A stretch of DNA of 64,000 nucleotides, from positions 1 through 64,000 of the forward strand of contig NZ_JAJRCG010000005.1 in assembly GCF_028679125.1 (NCBI RefSeq), written 5' to 3'. Shown here in pieces: positions 1 to 60,216 of this stretch. Within the stretch, counting starts at the first letter, position 1; every line of letters starts with the position of its first letter. Source of the stretch: Methanoregula sp. GTDB taxonomy: Archaea; Halobacteriota; Methanomicrobia; Methanomicrobiales; Methanospirillaceae. A program made the translations under genes and the position numbers. The notes beneath the pieces are model-generated. The model was not told where the DNA came from. It searched no databases and saw nothing but the letters and a program-made list of their open reading frames with translations.

Positions 1-180
1 GGAAAATTTTCATAGGATTGGAAGATAATCTTCTCATGCCTACGGGCGGGACCGGGTTCAACACAGTTTAGTCGCTTGATGAACCCGTCCTTCACTTTTC
101 GGGACAACCTCCGGTCATCCACACTACGCAATTAATAATATGATAATATACAATTTCTGTCCCTATCATCGAACTGGCAG
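1..180 (-). promoter_or_regulatory. Promoter and structured leader element, copy 1 (its gene lies beyond the left edge)
   Basis: This stretch is nearly identical to 8398-8577 and shares its core with 58620-58800. Read on the minus strand it has an AT-rich TATA-like segment (about 131-150), then a conserved block. In that block GGGTTCA (complement of 80-86) pairs with TGAACCC (complement of 54-60) around a loop containing AAGCGACTAA. A second hairpin, AGAAGATTATCTTCT, lies at 20-34. In the other two copies a gene for a signal-peptide-bearing protein starts 45-50 nt past the element, so the gene served here should start just left of base 1 on the minus strand. Repetition and pairing are seen directly. 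A regulatory role is inferred. Confidence 0.6.
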
Positions 181-4992: not shown

Positions 4993-5112
4993 TTATTTCA
5001 GGTTTTTTTCTTCTTCACTCACCGATGGGTTTTCCGGACTCACCATCGATACCATCGCCATCACTGCCAGCCATAGTGCCAGCAGGACGACGCCCATTTT
5101 GTGCAGGTCCAT
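4993..5112 (-). pseudogene. Truncated secreted-protein gene: only a signal peptide remains
   Basis: A 39-codon frame reads MDLHKMGVVLLALWLAVMAM, then VSMVSPENPS and a short charged tail, then TAA. It matches the signal peptide of the gene starting at 8355 (MQLRKLGIVLLALLLAAMVM), including the Val-Ser cleavage area and at nucleotide level. A purine-rich GGAAGAAAAAG precedes the ATG. The body of the paralogue is missing. It is best read as a deletion relic of the same secreted family, though a short exported peptide is possible. The 5113-5340 sequence upstream lacks the leader element found before the intact paralogues. Confidence 0.6.
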
Positions 5113-5340
5113 TCTTTTTCTTCCTTCAGCTTATGGGGTTTTGTTCAGAAAAATCCCGGTGCCTCGATAGAGTCACATCTTTTATTGAAAACGAGATCTC
5201 TAACGGAGTGTAGTCTGGATAGAGTTTTATCACAACCCCGTGTGTCGGACACATGTTCAACAGAGATTCTGACGCATTCTTCTGGTCGACAGCGATCCTG
5301 AAATGTTTCATAAATGCATGTATGCCTGGAAGGCTGCCAA

Positions 5341-5820
5341 TTATTCTACTACAACATTCAGGTTGAATACTGACTCAGAGCCGGTAACCCGTTCAGGGCG
5401 TCGAAGAATTGCCTTAATCGTCTGAATGCCCGGTTCCTTCGTGGAAATTTTCCATTCATGCACTGCTTTAATTCCCACAATCGTCGTCGGGAGATCGTTT
5501 TCATCAAACCATCTGACACCCTCATCAACTATTTCCAGCCCCGGACTGGCAGTCATCTGCCACTGGTATCCGGTCCTGCTGTTCTCCTTCAGCTGGATAG
5601 TAATCGTGCTTCCCGGTTTTGCGCATACCTTGGAGTTGCTGTGTGTCTCATTAATGGTCACAATTTTTTCTGATGACGCAGCGATCTGACATTGTACCGG
5701 CTCTGAAATATTGTTTGATTTCTGTTGATCAAATCCGATACAACCTGCCGATATAATGATCATAAGAAGAACCGTGGATATCATTATCACTCCAGTTTTT
5801 CGCGGAATGTGTTCTACCAT
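5341..5820 (-). CDS. Chagasin-type cysteine peptidase inhibitor (I42 family), lipoprotein
   Basis: A 159-residue protein when started at ATG 5820, which is preceded by AAGGGGGG at good spacing. An upstream ATG at 5838 would add six residues. A hydrophobic leader ends in a lipobox (IIISAGC, Cys about residue 27), so the protein should be lipid-anchored outside the cell. The inhibitor domain shows the family loops: NSRTGYQWQ (about 81-88), the central GIKAVHEWKI loop, and a C-terminal RRPE strand. Chagasins block papain-type (C1) peptidases by inserting these loops in the active site. It lies near two other inhibitor-like genes (6084-7106 and the serpin at 11009). Confidence 0.85.
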   Translation of the reverse strand: MVEHIPRKTGVIMISTVLLMIIISAGCIGFDQQKSNNISEPVQCQIAASSEKIVTINETHSNSKVCAKPGSTITIQLKENSRTGYQWQMTASPGLEIVDEGVRWFDENDLPTTIVGIKAVHEWKISTKEPGIQTIKAILRRPERVTGSESVFNLNVVVE

Positions 5821-5860
5821 TGATACCCCCCTTGTCATAAATATGGTACATAAAAAATGA

Positions 5861-7122: not shown

Positions 7123-8355
7123 TTAAGATTGGGAATTTGCAGCCCGGTGATACGAATATATTGTGTCACCAATCTTATATGCATTCATCAGGACATAATT
7201 GGCATTTCCCGTGAAGTAATCGTGTGAAAAACGCTGACCTGTCCCAATCCAACTTGGGTTGCCTGAATCCTTTGTCTCGTATGCTTTCATAGTGTTCGTG
7301 ATTGAGTCAAACGAGTAATTAACCGTATCAGTAGTCAGTTCGGTAGATGGCACAATGCGGTTGATATATGTTGAGGGGTTATCACTGTCATTGTAGTTGA
7401 AAGTATACCATATTCCAGTACCTGTATTATAGAAGTTGATGCTGTACTGGCCATTGGTATTGACATAGAACTCATAATTCACCCGGTTTTTCGAGGTGAT
7501 ATCGATCCATTTCATCCCGGTTCCTCCAGTACCCCATTTTAAGACGCCCTCGTCATAGATGGGTGCAGATAACCAGATGTGCCCGTCATCACAATACCAC
7601 AACAGTAGTTCAACCGTATCATCAGCTCTGTTGAGATGAATTTCGGTCTCATGATAGATTGCAGTACTCTGTCCACTATTGGAAAACGTATCAGGTTTCA
7701 TATCCCCCCGTAATGCAACTGGGGTATAACTGGTGGATGATCGTTTCCACAGGTCCCATTCTGCATAGAGCGTGGATGCCTTTGGACTCATACCGGTTGA
7801 AACAGTTTTTTTATCTGAATTTCGAACAATCTCCAGATGCTGTTTCGAGATCCTCTCCATTTTTCTTTGCTCGGTTGCTTTTGTTAATTCAGTTATATCT
7901 GGATAGAATGAATAATAGGTGAGAGGATAATCCAGCGTTATTTCAGCAGAATTTTGTGTATTCTCTTGTTTTAACAGTTCTTTTGGGATCTGCAGCAAAG
8001 CAACGCGTTCAGTTTTTTCAATTGCCTGGTTCGTATTAACCTCAATTCCAGATCCATCATTCAACTTACTGGTCATAAGCTGAGTTCGGGGAATAGTGAT
8101 GGATACGGTATCATAAGTTGTTTTTTGCCTGATTAACCATTCTTCAGGAAACACAAATGATACAATTTCCGATTCGTTCACTGGTTCTTTCAGAATAATT
8201 TCCGATGGGTCAAATATGGGAGTAATCATTCCGGTTGTCGGATGATCGGCATCTGCTTTTATTGCAGCACCTTCCCCCGCACTCACCATCGGTACCATCA
8301 CCATCGCTGCCAGCAGCAGTGCCAGCAGGACGATGCCCAGTTTGCGTAGTTGCAT
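7123..8355 (-). CDS. Secreted protein of unknown function, paralogue of 58849-60216
   Basis: A 410-residue protein with a clear signal peptide (residues 1-27, MQLRKLGIVLLALLLAAMVM ending VSAGEG). ATG 8355 follows AAGGAG. The mature part is beta-rich and high in Thr, Ser, Asn and Tyr, with Trp-containing strands (YAEWDLWKRSS, VELLLWYCDDGHIWL) typical of extracellular beta-sandwich proteins. It shares the signal peptide and overall plan (short acidic N-region, a segment that names a first short domain, then a long beta-rich region) with 58849-60216. No enzyme motif is seen. Its upstream region carries the conserved promoter and leader element (8398-8577). Confidence 0.8.
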   Translation of the reverse strand: MQLRKLGIVLLALLLAAMVMVPMVSAGEGAAIKADADHPTTGMITPIFDPSEIILKEPVNESEIVSFVFPEEWLIRQKTTYDTVSITIPRTQLMTSKLNDGSGIEVNTNQAIEKTERVALLQIPKELLKQENTQNSAEITLDYPLTYYSFYPDITELTKATEQRKMERISKQHLEIVRNSDKKTVSTGMSPKASTLYAEWDLWKRSSTSYTPVALRGDMKPDTFSNSGQSTAIYHETEIHLNRADDTVELLLWYCDDGHIWLSAPIYDEGVLKWGTGGTGMKWIDITSKNRVNYEFYVNTNGQYSINFYNTGTGIWYTFNYNDSDNPSTYINRIVPSTELTTDTVNYSFDSITNTMKAYETKDSGNPSWIGTGQRFSHDYFTGNANYVLMNAYKIGDTIYSYHRAANSQS

Positions 8356-8397
8356 TTGTTTCCAACTCCTTTTGTATTCGCTACGCTCGGAGGCACA

Positions 8398-8577
8398 GGA
8401 AAATTTTCATATAATCAGAAGATAATCTTCTCATGCCTACGGGCAGGATCGGGTTCAACACAGGTTAGTCGCTTGGTGAATCCGTCCTTCACATTTCGGG
8501 ACAACCTCCGGTCATCCACACTACGCAATTTATAATGGGATAATATACAATTTCTGTCCCTATCATCGAACTGGCAC
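8398..8577 (-). promoter_or_regulatory. Promoter and structured leader element, copy 2
   Basis: On the minus strand the element has a TATA-like TTATAAATTG (about 8527-8537), then GGTTGTCCCGAAA, then the conserved core TTCACCAAGCGAC followed by GTTGAACCCGA (8451-8487), which fold against each other. A perfect second hairpin, AGAAGATTATCTTCT, lies at 8418-8432. The element ends about 45 nt before the ATG at 8355, placing the hairpins in a 5' leader of roughly 150 nt. The same order occurs at 1-180 and 58620-58800. Confidence 0.65.
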
Positions 8578-58619: not shown

Positions 58620-58800
58620 CGAAAGCGGAAGGTACCGGGTGAGAACGAGTATAAAGCAACGTTTCGAATTGCTCGTTGCGGACAACACGTATTGTCCCGA
58701 AAGAAGAGAACGGGTTCACCAAGCGACGAACTTCGTTGAACCCGACTCCGCCCGTTGGCATGTGGATTTCATCATCCGATCTTATGAAGGTTGGCTTCGT
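58620..58800 (+). promoter_or_regulatory. Promoter and structured leader element, copy 3
   Basis: Plus-strand copy. It has TATA-like GTATAAAGC at about 58649, then a local stem (GCAACG and CGTTGC flanking TTTCGAATTGCT), then ATTGTCCCGAAAG, then CGGGTTCACC (58711-58720) pairing with GTTGAACCCG (58735-58744). The last hairpin has GGAT (58764-58767) pairing with ATCC (58774-58777). At the same place copies 1 and 2 have AGAAGA/TCTTCT instead, so the pairing is conserved although the sequence is not. The element ends about 50 nt before the ATG of the secreted protein gene. Confidence 0.65.
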
Positions 58801-58848
58801 CCCCCCCCGGGTGTAACAAGGTGAAAAAGAAACGGAGATGAAAGAAAA

Positions 58849-60216
58849 ATGTCTCTTCGGAAAACAATCGCTATCCTGCTGGTACTGTTGCTGGCCGGGA
58901 TGGTAGTGGTACCGATGGTGAGTGCTGGAGAAGAACAAGGGGTAAACCTTTCTGATTCAGGCAATCTGGATATACCTGAAAAACCTGCACCTCACCATAT
59001 CCCAGATGATTACCTCAAAGACTCAAAACCCGCAAAATGGCTTCCCGAATCTGAGATGGTTAATATCATTCTCTCTCAGAAAATCCTTGCAAAATACGGT
59101 CAAAACAGCAATTCTGATCTCATTGAAATTCCCATTTCGTATTTGGAGTCGAAATCGAATTTTGCAGAAAATAAAAATTTCCCTTCTGCATACAAGGTCG
59201 AGGCGGGAATTTATCCAGATGAACCGATTGTTCTGATACGGATGCCAACTCAGTTATACCTCACCTTCATCAAGGAAGATGTTAACGGAAAACTGACACT
59301 GCCTCCTGCATATTTCTGCCGGTTCTATGCGAATTTTACGGATCTGAAATCACATACCACAACCGTGGATGGATCAATTCAGATAACACCAAGTAGCCAG
59401 TATCCCGTTCCTGGTTTATTGGATGAGAACAGCATGCCGATAAATGCAGAAAAGATATCATCTGATAAATCGGGAATTTCCGCATCCTTGCAAAAAATAA
59501 CGAATGCAACAACGTTAAGTGTGCCCCAGAATTTTTCGCAATGGTCCGTATCCGGGAAGGCGTTATCAACGAATTATAAATACTGCATAGGGCGGATCAG
59601 GCCATACAGCTGGACATTATCTGGATCAGGAGCAGATTTGTTTAAACTGTTTGCCGAAAGGGAGTATAAATTCAATAACGGTGAAGCCCTGGAAATTATT
59701 GTCCAGTATTTCGATCGAAATGAGTTGGCTGGAATCGAGCTTTATCCGGCGCTTTATAGGAATGGAGCCGCAGGTCCCATCCTACCAGCCGGTTGGTCCC
59801 ATTGGGAGGGGCATGTAGCAATTGATCCTTTTGATCTTCCTCATTCATACGGGTATCATGTCCAGACAACCAATTCCGGCTATGGATACCAGGTGGATTT
59901 TGAAGATATGGATACTCAACGATGGATCAAATCATATACGGTTACTGCAGCATCAACCGTCTCATCATTTACGGAATTAGACGGATCGAGCGAGTATAAC
60001 CAGATAAATGTTCCTTCTACGGACACATTCTCTGCAACAACGAGTCCGGTAATCGACGAATGGGTTATCGATGTGTATGATGGCTGGAACTACCCCATTA
60101 ATGCATGGCAGGAACCAGTCTTGGTTCCGGCTGCTGCACAGCCATATGTCAGCGTTGTTCCATCATGGGATAGCACTGGGAGACTGATAACAGAATCCTA
60201 TGCGCACTATCCCTAA
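58849..60216 (+). CDS. Secreted protein of unknown function, paralogue of 7123-8355
   Basis: A 455-residue protein with a signal peptide (MSLRKTIAILLVLLLAGMVV ending MVSAGEE) nearly identical to that of 7123-8355. The mature part has a short acidic region, an N-terminal domain (to about 195) with repeated PISYL and AGIYPDEPIVLIRMPT strands, and a beta-rich C-terminal domain with many aromatic residues (WSVSGKALSTNYKY, EWVIDVYDGWNYPINAW). GGAGATGA precedes the start. No catalytic motif is seen. The leader element and the signal peptide show common origin and probably common regulation of the two genes. Confidence 0.8.
   Translation: MSLRKTIAILLVLLLAGMVVVPMVSAGEEQGVNLSDSGNLDIPEKPAPHHIPDDYLKDSKPAKWLPESEMVNIILSQKILAKYGQNSNSDLIEIPISYLESKSNFAENKNFPSAYKVEAGIYPDEPIVLIRMPTQLYLTFIKEDVNGKLTLPPAYFCRFYANFTDLKSHTTTVDGSIQITPSSQYPVPGLLDENSMPINAEKISSDKSGISASLQKITNATTLSVPQNFSQWSVSGKALSTNYKYCIGRIRPYSWTLSGSGADLFKLFAEREYKFNNGEALEIIVQYFDRNELAGIELYPALYRNGAAGPILPAGWSHWEGHVAIDPFDLPHSYGYHVQTTNSGYGYQVDFEDMDTQRWIKSYTVTAASTVSSFTELDGSSEYNQINVPSTDTFSATTSPVIDEWVIDVYDGWNYPINAWQEPVLVPAAAQPYVSVVPSWDSTGRLITESYAHYP

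Follow-up and report, generated by a model that had tools for sequence, protein, structure and literature searches.

An apparently undescribed family of structured RNA leaders precedes genes of exported products in two orders of methanogens, the Methanomicrobiales and the Methanosarcinales, a finding that is well supported. What was observed directly is the family with its fold, its place and its link to exported products, and a regulatory action may be added to them. With a probability of about 0.6 we read the element as a cis-acting structured mRNA leader for exported products in both orders. Archaea have few structured regulatory leaders, and to our knowledge none is known in which export rather than a pathway is the trait common to the targets. 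The leader would point to an unrecognised shared RNA control of what methanogens export and could serve as a handle on which of their exported proteins and peptides act together. The family occurs in Methanosarcina, for which genetic tools exist, and frames the question of what effect the antisense RNA sRNA162 has on its cis target.

Copies of the leader in the window

The window, i.e. the whole analysed stretch of 64,000 nucleotides of Methanoregula sp. DNA, contains the same element at 58669-58848 on the plus strand (copy 3) and at 8356-8525 (copy 2) and 1-128 (copy 1) on the minus strand. Copy 1 is 93% identical to copy 2 over 179 nt, and copy 3 aligns with copy 2 at 77% identity over about 97 nt (blastn, E 8.7e-13). 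The covariance model R2, the alignment of which held copies 2 and 3 and not copy 1, matches all three in their own genome (E 1.5e-9, 3.7e-17 and 3.6e-12 for copies 1, 2 and 3), so that sequence comparison and model bear out the initial annotation, which had taken them for one element. The same annotation had correctly recognised in every copy a TATA-like box, a GTCCCGAAA block, a core pairing GGGTTCA/TGAACCC, which has GGATTCA in copy 2, and a hairpin further downstream, and had missed the additional hairpin P1, of which the GTCCCGAAA block forms the 3' side. The pairings AGAAGA/TCTTCT and GGAT/ATCC, proposed as alternative versions of a second helix, turned out to be local sequences; the conserved helix is P3. 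The proposed 45-50 nt to the ATG need correction: the ATG lies 34 nt from the end of P3 in copy 2 and 43 nt in copy 3, and that of copy 1 is out of view because the contig start cuts this copy. P3 of copy 3 contains a C.C mismatch and its inner helix one mismatch. The parts of the three copies are listed below; boxes and Shine-Dalgarno sites were assigned by sequence.

58650..58655, plus strand: copy 3, TATA-like box, putative promoter
58680..58697, plus strand: copy 3, P1 hairpin GGACAA/TTGTCC
58708..58748, plus strand: copy 3, P2 hairpin (R1/R2 match 58706-58805)
58749..58755, plus strand: copy 3, conserved joint GCCCG, from P2 to P3
58756..58804, plus strand: copy 3, P3 hairpin with one C.C mismatch
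58834..58837, plus strand: copy 3, Shine-Dalgarno site GGAG
58849..60216, plus strand: copy 3, target gene, 455-aa protein with signal peptide, no Pfam match
8528..8537, minus strand: copy 2, TATA-like box, putative promoter
8499..8517, minus strand: copy 2, P1 hairpin GGATGACC/GGTTGTCC
8446..8487, minus strand: copy 2, P2 hairpin (model match 8390-8489)
8439..8445, minus strand: copy 2, conserved joint TGCCCGT
8391..8438, minus strand: copy 2, P3 hairpin AGGCATG...TGTGCCT
8366..8370, minus strand: copy 2, Shine-Dalgarno site AGGAG
7123..8355, minus strand: copy 2, target gene, 410-aa protein with signal peptide, no Pfam match
102..120, minus strand: copy 1, P1 hairpin
1..92, minus strand: copy 1, P2 and part of P3 (model match), cut by the contig start, target gene outside

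The signal peptides of the two visible targets read ...LLALLLAAMVMVPMVSAGE (410 aa) and ...LLVLLLAGMVVVPMVSAGE (455 aa), and the two proteins are related (BLASTP 5e-06, 23% identity, signal peptide counted in). A remnant of the same signal-peptide start with an early stop is found at 5034-5118 on the minus strand, where no model match to the leader was obtained. Close to copy 2, at 5344-5838 on the minus strand, lies a gene for a Chagasin-family (I42) peptidase inhibitor; some targets elsewhere are cysteine-peptidase-like.

Fold of the leader and covariation

The core of the family consists of the hairpin P2, a near-invariant GCCCGnAGGCAUGA joint and the hairpin P3. P3 has the form AGGCAUG...CAUGCCU with an inner helix AUCUUC/GAAGAU, and the joint GCCCGnA and the subsequent GGCAUGA vary little. 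The stem of P2 takes forms such as GGACGGGUUCA/UGAACCCGGUCC, GGCCGGGUCCA/CGGACCCGGGCC and GGAUGAGUUCA/UGAACUCAAUCC, and in Methanosarcina-type copies UGCAGG(A/G)UUCAG/CUGAA(U/C)CCUGCA. The consensus folds that RNAalifold derived from the first MAFFT alignments were weak (-1.8 and about -5 kcal/mol). A number of single folds then guided a structure drawn by hand on the 31 copies of the seed alignment A2, which left out copy 1, L015 and near-duplicates, and this structure was tested by counting. In A2, which was not fitted to a model, both partners have changed in 9 of 24 pairs, as compared to a shuffled mean of 4.1 (equalled by 3 of 500 shuffles).

The larger alignment A3 comprises 103 matches, which come from 98 loci out of the 172 that have an examined match; it was aligned with the model R1 and thereby fitted to it, which favours the structure. 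Standard pairs occupy 88.6% of its 2403 cells versus 75.5% after shuffling, two-sided change is seen in 309 cells versus 89.5 ± 9.8 (0 of 500 shuffles), and the covariation score is 0.387 versus 0.157 ± 0.007 (0 of 500), with shuffles that ignore kinship. Sliding the structure by 1-3 columns on A3 leaves at most 80 such cells and a score of at most 0.097. Counted by pairs, 19 of 24 change on both sides against a shuffled mean of 16.1, a measure that is weak when taken alone since 21 of 500 shuffles equal it. The strong covariation in the 103 copies supports the earlier proposal of a selected RNA structure in the leader. Moreover, the paired columns contain G.U in 167 cells and A.C in 107 when read on the sense strand, which points to the sense strand as the one that folds, with the reservation that cells are not independent.

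P1 is less general. A strong hairpin was found in 88 of 226 distinct 48-nt stretches upstream of the core, some of them off the place of P1, as compared to 11 of 226 mononucleotide-shuffled stretches. Its stem differs by lineage (GGACAGCC/GGTTGTCC, TGGAGTACC/GGTATTCCA, TGCGGATGCT/AGCGTTCGCA), and it is mostly missing from Methanosarcina-type copies. Two further pairings were considered and rejected. Pairing of ACGGG in P2 with CCCGU of the joint is lost or weakened where P2 covaries (L017, L016, L052), the joint remaining unchanged. A local GCC-CGnA-GGC hairpin in place of P3 would require that GCC follow GGC; in L055 and L123, where GGC has become UGC, GCC is constant and it is the far side of P3 that follows (GUGCA).

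Distribution among methanogens

How widespread is the leader? Three copies had been annotated; the genome of the window holds eight good ones by R2 (E up to 1.4e-6, the next model matches being at 0.03 and 0.33) and five by blastn (E up to 5.4e-9). Four copies of this genome lie clustered at L123:434-8864 (G000:C1:294433-302863). Among 60 genomes including this one, blastn detected the element in 13, all of the window's genus. Model searches reach further, with per-genome counts that are lower bounds, as 17 or 10 candidates were scored per genome under strict filters. Within the window's order R1 found the element in at least 50 of 232 genomes, which belong to 13 of 40 genera, and in a phylum sample it did so in at least 38 of 392 genomes (14 of 136 genera); R2, built from A3, found it in at least 82 of the 232 (19 of 40 genera) and at least 85 of the 392 (25 of 136 genera). 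Phylum matches outside the window's order fall nearly all into a single family, f8, which appears to be the Methanosarcinaceae. One genome (G033) carries at least 17 copies among 17 candidates scored. The element nevertheless seems dispensable, since some genomes of the window's genus have no match among those listed, e.g. G001, which is 99% complete and gave no match among the 17 candidates scored.

A sequence-pattern scan that covered 84,980 species, each represented by a single genome, returned 38 stretches, 37 of them archaeal by name. Methanoregula, Methanolinea, Methanoculleus, Methanosarcina, Methanohalophilus, Methanococcoides, Methanoregulaceae, Methanomicrobiales or Methanosarcinales account for 36, and the other two are assigned to Euryarchaeota (L230) and Syntrophomonadaceae (L207). 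The latter is an 11 kb contig of a metagenome-assembled genome that encodes exported proteins with signal peptides resembling those of Methanosarcina, for which reason it is probably misbinned. Viral contigs gave 0 matches to one sequence pattern. No family of Rfam 15 (4227 models) reached its gathering score in the window, nor was there a gathering-score match on the strand of the element at 40 further sources; when E was relaxed to 5 for four loci, three matches appeared, each scoring far under its gathering threshold.

Genes behind the leader

Among the matches listed, 240 places were examined: 150 from R1 in the order, 30 from R1 in the phylum and 60 that were new with R2. The 60 are held out and not independent, being homologues of training copies, and new R2 places that were left out include at least G222:C31, G471:C39 and G536:C167:4127. 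By a loose test, 148 of the first 180 places are followed by an ORF of at least 60 aa with a hydrophobic N-terminus, 28 by another ORF and 4 by none; in several of these 32 a gene of this kind is still visible that has suffered a frameshift or runs off the end of its contig. The loose test was also passed in 49 of the 60 new places. As 117 of the 221 neighbouring genes and 13 of the 36 genes in the window also pass it, a stricter test was adopted, which demands a hydrophobic stretch and a small-residue cleavage-like motif without a later membrane segment. Both tests are heuristics distinct from SignalP and were applied to mechanically picked ORFs. An ORF of at least 60 aa is present at 218 of the 240 places and one of at least 100 aa at 209, the remainder standing outside the strict count. 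Strictly judged, 169 of these 209 target ORFs look exported (38 of 51 in the later set), as compared to 7 of the 36 remaining genes of the window and 43 of 168 further genes from the named loci; the excess is significant at 1e-12 and 6e-28, respectively (Fisher, uncorrected for kinship). Likewise, 34 of 41 pattern-scan matches precede an N-terminally hydrophobic ORF. The covariance-model search suggested in the initial annotation thus returned matches that mostly precede genes of exported-type proteins. For the 181 exported-type ORFs that start within 60 nt, the median distance from the end of P3 to the start codon is 29 nt.

The exported proteins themselves are diverse. Of the 148 exported ORFs at the first 180 places, 146 had sufficient length for comparison; with the first 28 residues taken off, their mature parts formed 35 clusters in BLAST (E 1e-4, 50 aa). 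The idea of one secreted family accordingly holds for the two window targets, which both bear a signal peptide and are related, and does not extend to the targets of the whole family. A Pfam scan of 20 downstream proteins (one for each of 19 clusters plus a second C39-like protein, taken from a single-member cluster) gave matches above cut-off in six, namely Peptidase_C39_2 (two), transglutaminase-like, M12 reprolysin-like, subtilase S8 and PKD; the other 14 received no Pfam name. Pfam named no RNA-binding or ribosomal protein, as an autogenous ribosomal-protein leader would precede, among these 20 proteins and both window targets, and a PDB sequence search with two target proteins gave 0 matches.

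Among the targets that lack an evident signal peptide there are short Cys-rich ORFs. At L154:401-2194, L113:128-2104 and L015:1549-2530 a radical-SAM protein adjoins the Cys-rich peptide ORF behind the leader. In NCBIfam this protein comes closest to a Cys-rich peptide maturase, with a score under the curated cut-off, and the three loci are possible archaeal RiPP systems. Because some of the targets lacking a signal peptide are such Cys-rich ORFs beside a radical-SAM protein, what unites the targets may be the export of peptides and proteins alike and not the signal peptide as such.

Transcription start and the antisense RNA sRNA162

One member of the family has been studied before. In Methanosarcina mazei, RACE placed the start of the MM2442 transcript 184 nt before the annotated start codon, the transcript overlaps sRNA162 in antisense over 65 nt, and no ribosome site was found ahead of the annotated start (PMC3510493). 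In vitro binding of sRNA162 to this leader was shown as well (Jaeger et al. 2012, PMC3510493), and the available parts of the report treat it as a single antisense-bound leader with possible small ORFs and not as a member of a structured family. No description of the leader family was found in the open-licence literature; the initial view of an undescribed leader therefore appears to hold for the family, whereas the MM2442 leader is already in print as an sRNA162 target. The sRNA162-bearing MM2442 homologue L166 carries the element. When the 65-nt overlap is transferred to L166, the mRNA start falls on position 1491, 10 nt ahead of P2, and the ATG of the annotated type follows at 1674, 183 nt after this start. 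L166 has a GAGGTG and, upstream of this ATG, an in-frame TTG, which yield a longer signal peptide and suggest that translation of MM2442-type genes may begin earlier, at the upstream TTG.

A transcription start just before P2, or before P1 where P1 is present, is supported by this one published member and would apply to the others by analogy; transferred to L166, the published start lies upstream of the hairpins, in line with the initial annotation. A TATA-like match (at least 6 of 8 positions) was found at 114 of the first 150 places, 57 of them at -65 to -56 of P2, and at 79 of 90 later places, there without a sharp peak of position.

In scans of 20 plus 20 sources, the Rfam family RF02792 (sRNA162/sRNA171) was found opposite 15 distinct Methanosarcina-type copies in several genomes, two in the first 20 sources and 13 in the second 20 (L166, L167, L168-L171, L182-L185, L189, L253/L322, L280, L284 and L288, with L253 and L322 being the same place). 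The 5' end of sRNA162 lies opposite element position ~55, and P2 and the joint are covered. RF02792 gave no match on the element's own strand, and sRNA162 had no match in the window nor in 18 of the first 20 loci scanned. The antisense RNAs thus overlap the element, but from the opposite strand and, in our scans, at Methanosarcina-type loci only.

Ribosome site and proposed mode of action

How might the leader act on its gene? In many copies the 3' strand of P3 ends in UGCCUC(C), which can pair with the GAGG/GGAG of the ribosome site to form a further helix, P4. The pairing is somewhat better between partners of the same copy than between shuffled ones (124 copies, 11.77 versus 10.84 ± 0.17, 0 of 300 shuffles), also within groups (71 copies, 10.54 versus 9.84 ± 0.20; 86 copies, 13.94 versus 12.41 ± 0.18; 0 of 200 each). 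Stems that extend or replace the usual one include CTCCTAG/CTAGGAG, CCACC/GGTGG and CTCCTG/CAGGAG, and many Methanoregula copies end in GCCGG without P4. Since P4 and P3 share bases, a switch between them is possible. The predicted pairing of the Shine-Dalgarno site at 37 °C is not above that of control genes (mean 0.525, n=169, versus 0.612, n=123). Sequestration of the site as judged by fold energy is accordingly unsupported, pairing being if anything below that of controls (p 0.019). The same 37 °C values bear on an RNA thermometer, in which a hairpin would close the ribosome site in the cold. The evidence for sequestration is hence mixed, the P4 pairing speaking for it and the predicted pairing of the site against it.

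In the preferred reading the leader RNA folds into P2, a near-invariant single-stranded GCCCGnA joint and P3, with the ribosome site usually some 20-45 nt further on, ahead of the gene of the exported product. A common factor, ligand or protein, may read the core of P2, joint and P3, and the leader would in this way set the translation of these genes together; translation is probably the level at which it acts. The UGCCUC of the P3 3' strand resembles an anti-Shine-Dalgarno sequence, and P3 could compete with P4, formed with GGAGG. In a subset of Methanosarcina copies P2 and the joint are additionally covered by an antisense RNA of the sRNA162 type.

What kind of leader is it? It is possible that the joint together with P2 and P3 forms the binding pocket of a ligand-sensing riboswitch, for which the exchange of P3 and P4 would be the expression platform. 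The unpaired joint is conserved as the stems change freely, P3 and P4 overlap with mild covariation of P4, and there are several copies per genome over unlike genes. Signalling riboswitches, e.g. those of the cyclic di-GMP class, are likewise present in many copies per genome before unlike genes that serve one physiological theme; this leader resembles them in that respect and differs by having no Rfam match on its own strand. Against a riboswitch stand the lack of a metabolic gene among Pfam-named targets that would hint at a ligand and the Shine-Dalgarno pairing, which is not higher than in control genes. Fluoride (crcB) and TPP riboswitches are classes present in both archaea and bacteria (PMC2864571). 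They share with the leader the position in the 5' region and archaeal members, whereas the tested copies have no Rfam match on the element's strand and no transport or vitamin gene was seen among the targets. A short near-invariant single-stranded motif flanked by two stems would equally suit a translational operator, at which a conserved RNA-binding protein reads the joint and sets the translation of an export regulon; the distribution of copies is regulon-like, and we hold this reading tentatively. Rather unlikely in our view is a constitutive role without any switch, be it as a stabilising or translation-enhancing 5' end or as a mark that targets the mRNA to the membrane. It would account for targets that are defined by export and not by a pathway and for a ribosome site predicted to be slightly more open than in controls, yet a near-invariant joint and the overlap of P3 and P4 exceed what a stabiliser needs, and genes of Cys-rich peptides without evident signal peptide also carry the element.

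Two explanations that dispense with a selected leader RNA are very improbable. Recent duplication of a cassette of promoter and signal peptide would produce the near-identical copies within genomes and the signal-peptide sequence common to Methanoregula targets, and duplication does spread copies inside the genus. As the full explanation it is refuted by compensatory change across two orders; moreover, signal peptides and mature proteins downstream differ, and distant matches were found by structure. Selection could also have acted on the other strand, where RF02792 lies opposite the 15 Methanosarcina-type copies. It matches neither the window nor the remaining 18 of the first 20 loci scanned, paired columns hold more G.U than A.C when read on the sense strand (167 to 107), and the distance to the start codon is narrow, all of which argues against this. 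If the cis-acting leader is taken to be a riboswitch or riboswitch-like sensor of a new archaeal class, found in two methanogen orders, a single signal might set the translation of an exported arsenal of proteases, Cys-rich proteins and radical-SAM-modified peptides, and the Methanosarcina antisense RNA might disable the sensor via P2; this is a speculative proposal, to which we attach considerable doubt.

Copies of unusual architecture

Some copies depart from the common arrangement. In L046 (1881-3299, with a gene of the PKD type), L045 and L096 the exported gene starts about 131-136 nt past P3, and a short ORF that has a ribosome site of its own can lie ahead of this gene or run into its start. 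The copy at 302767 in the genome of the window, the last of the cluster of four, has no intact gene visible behind it and looks decayed. In genome G366, from L170:1501 and from L184:401 onward, a head-to-tail repeat of joint and P3 follows immediately on the first P3.
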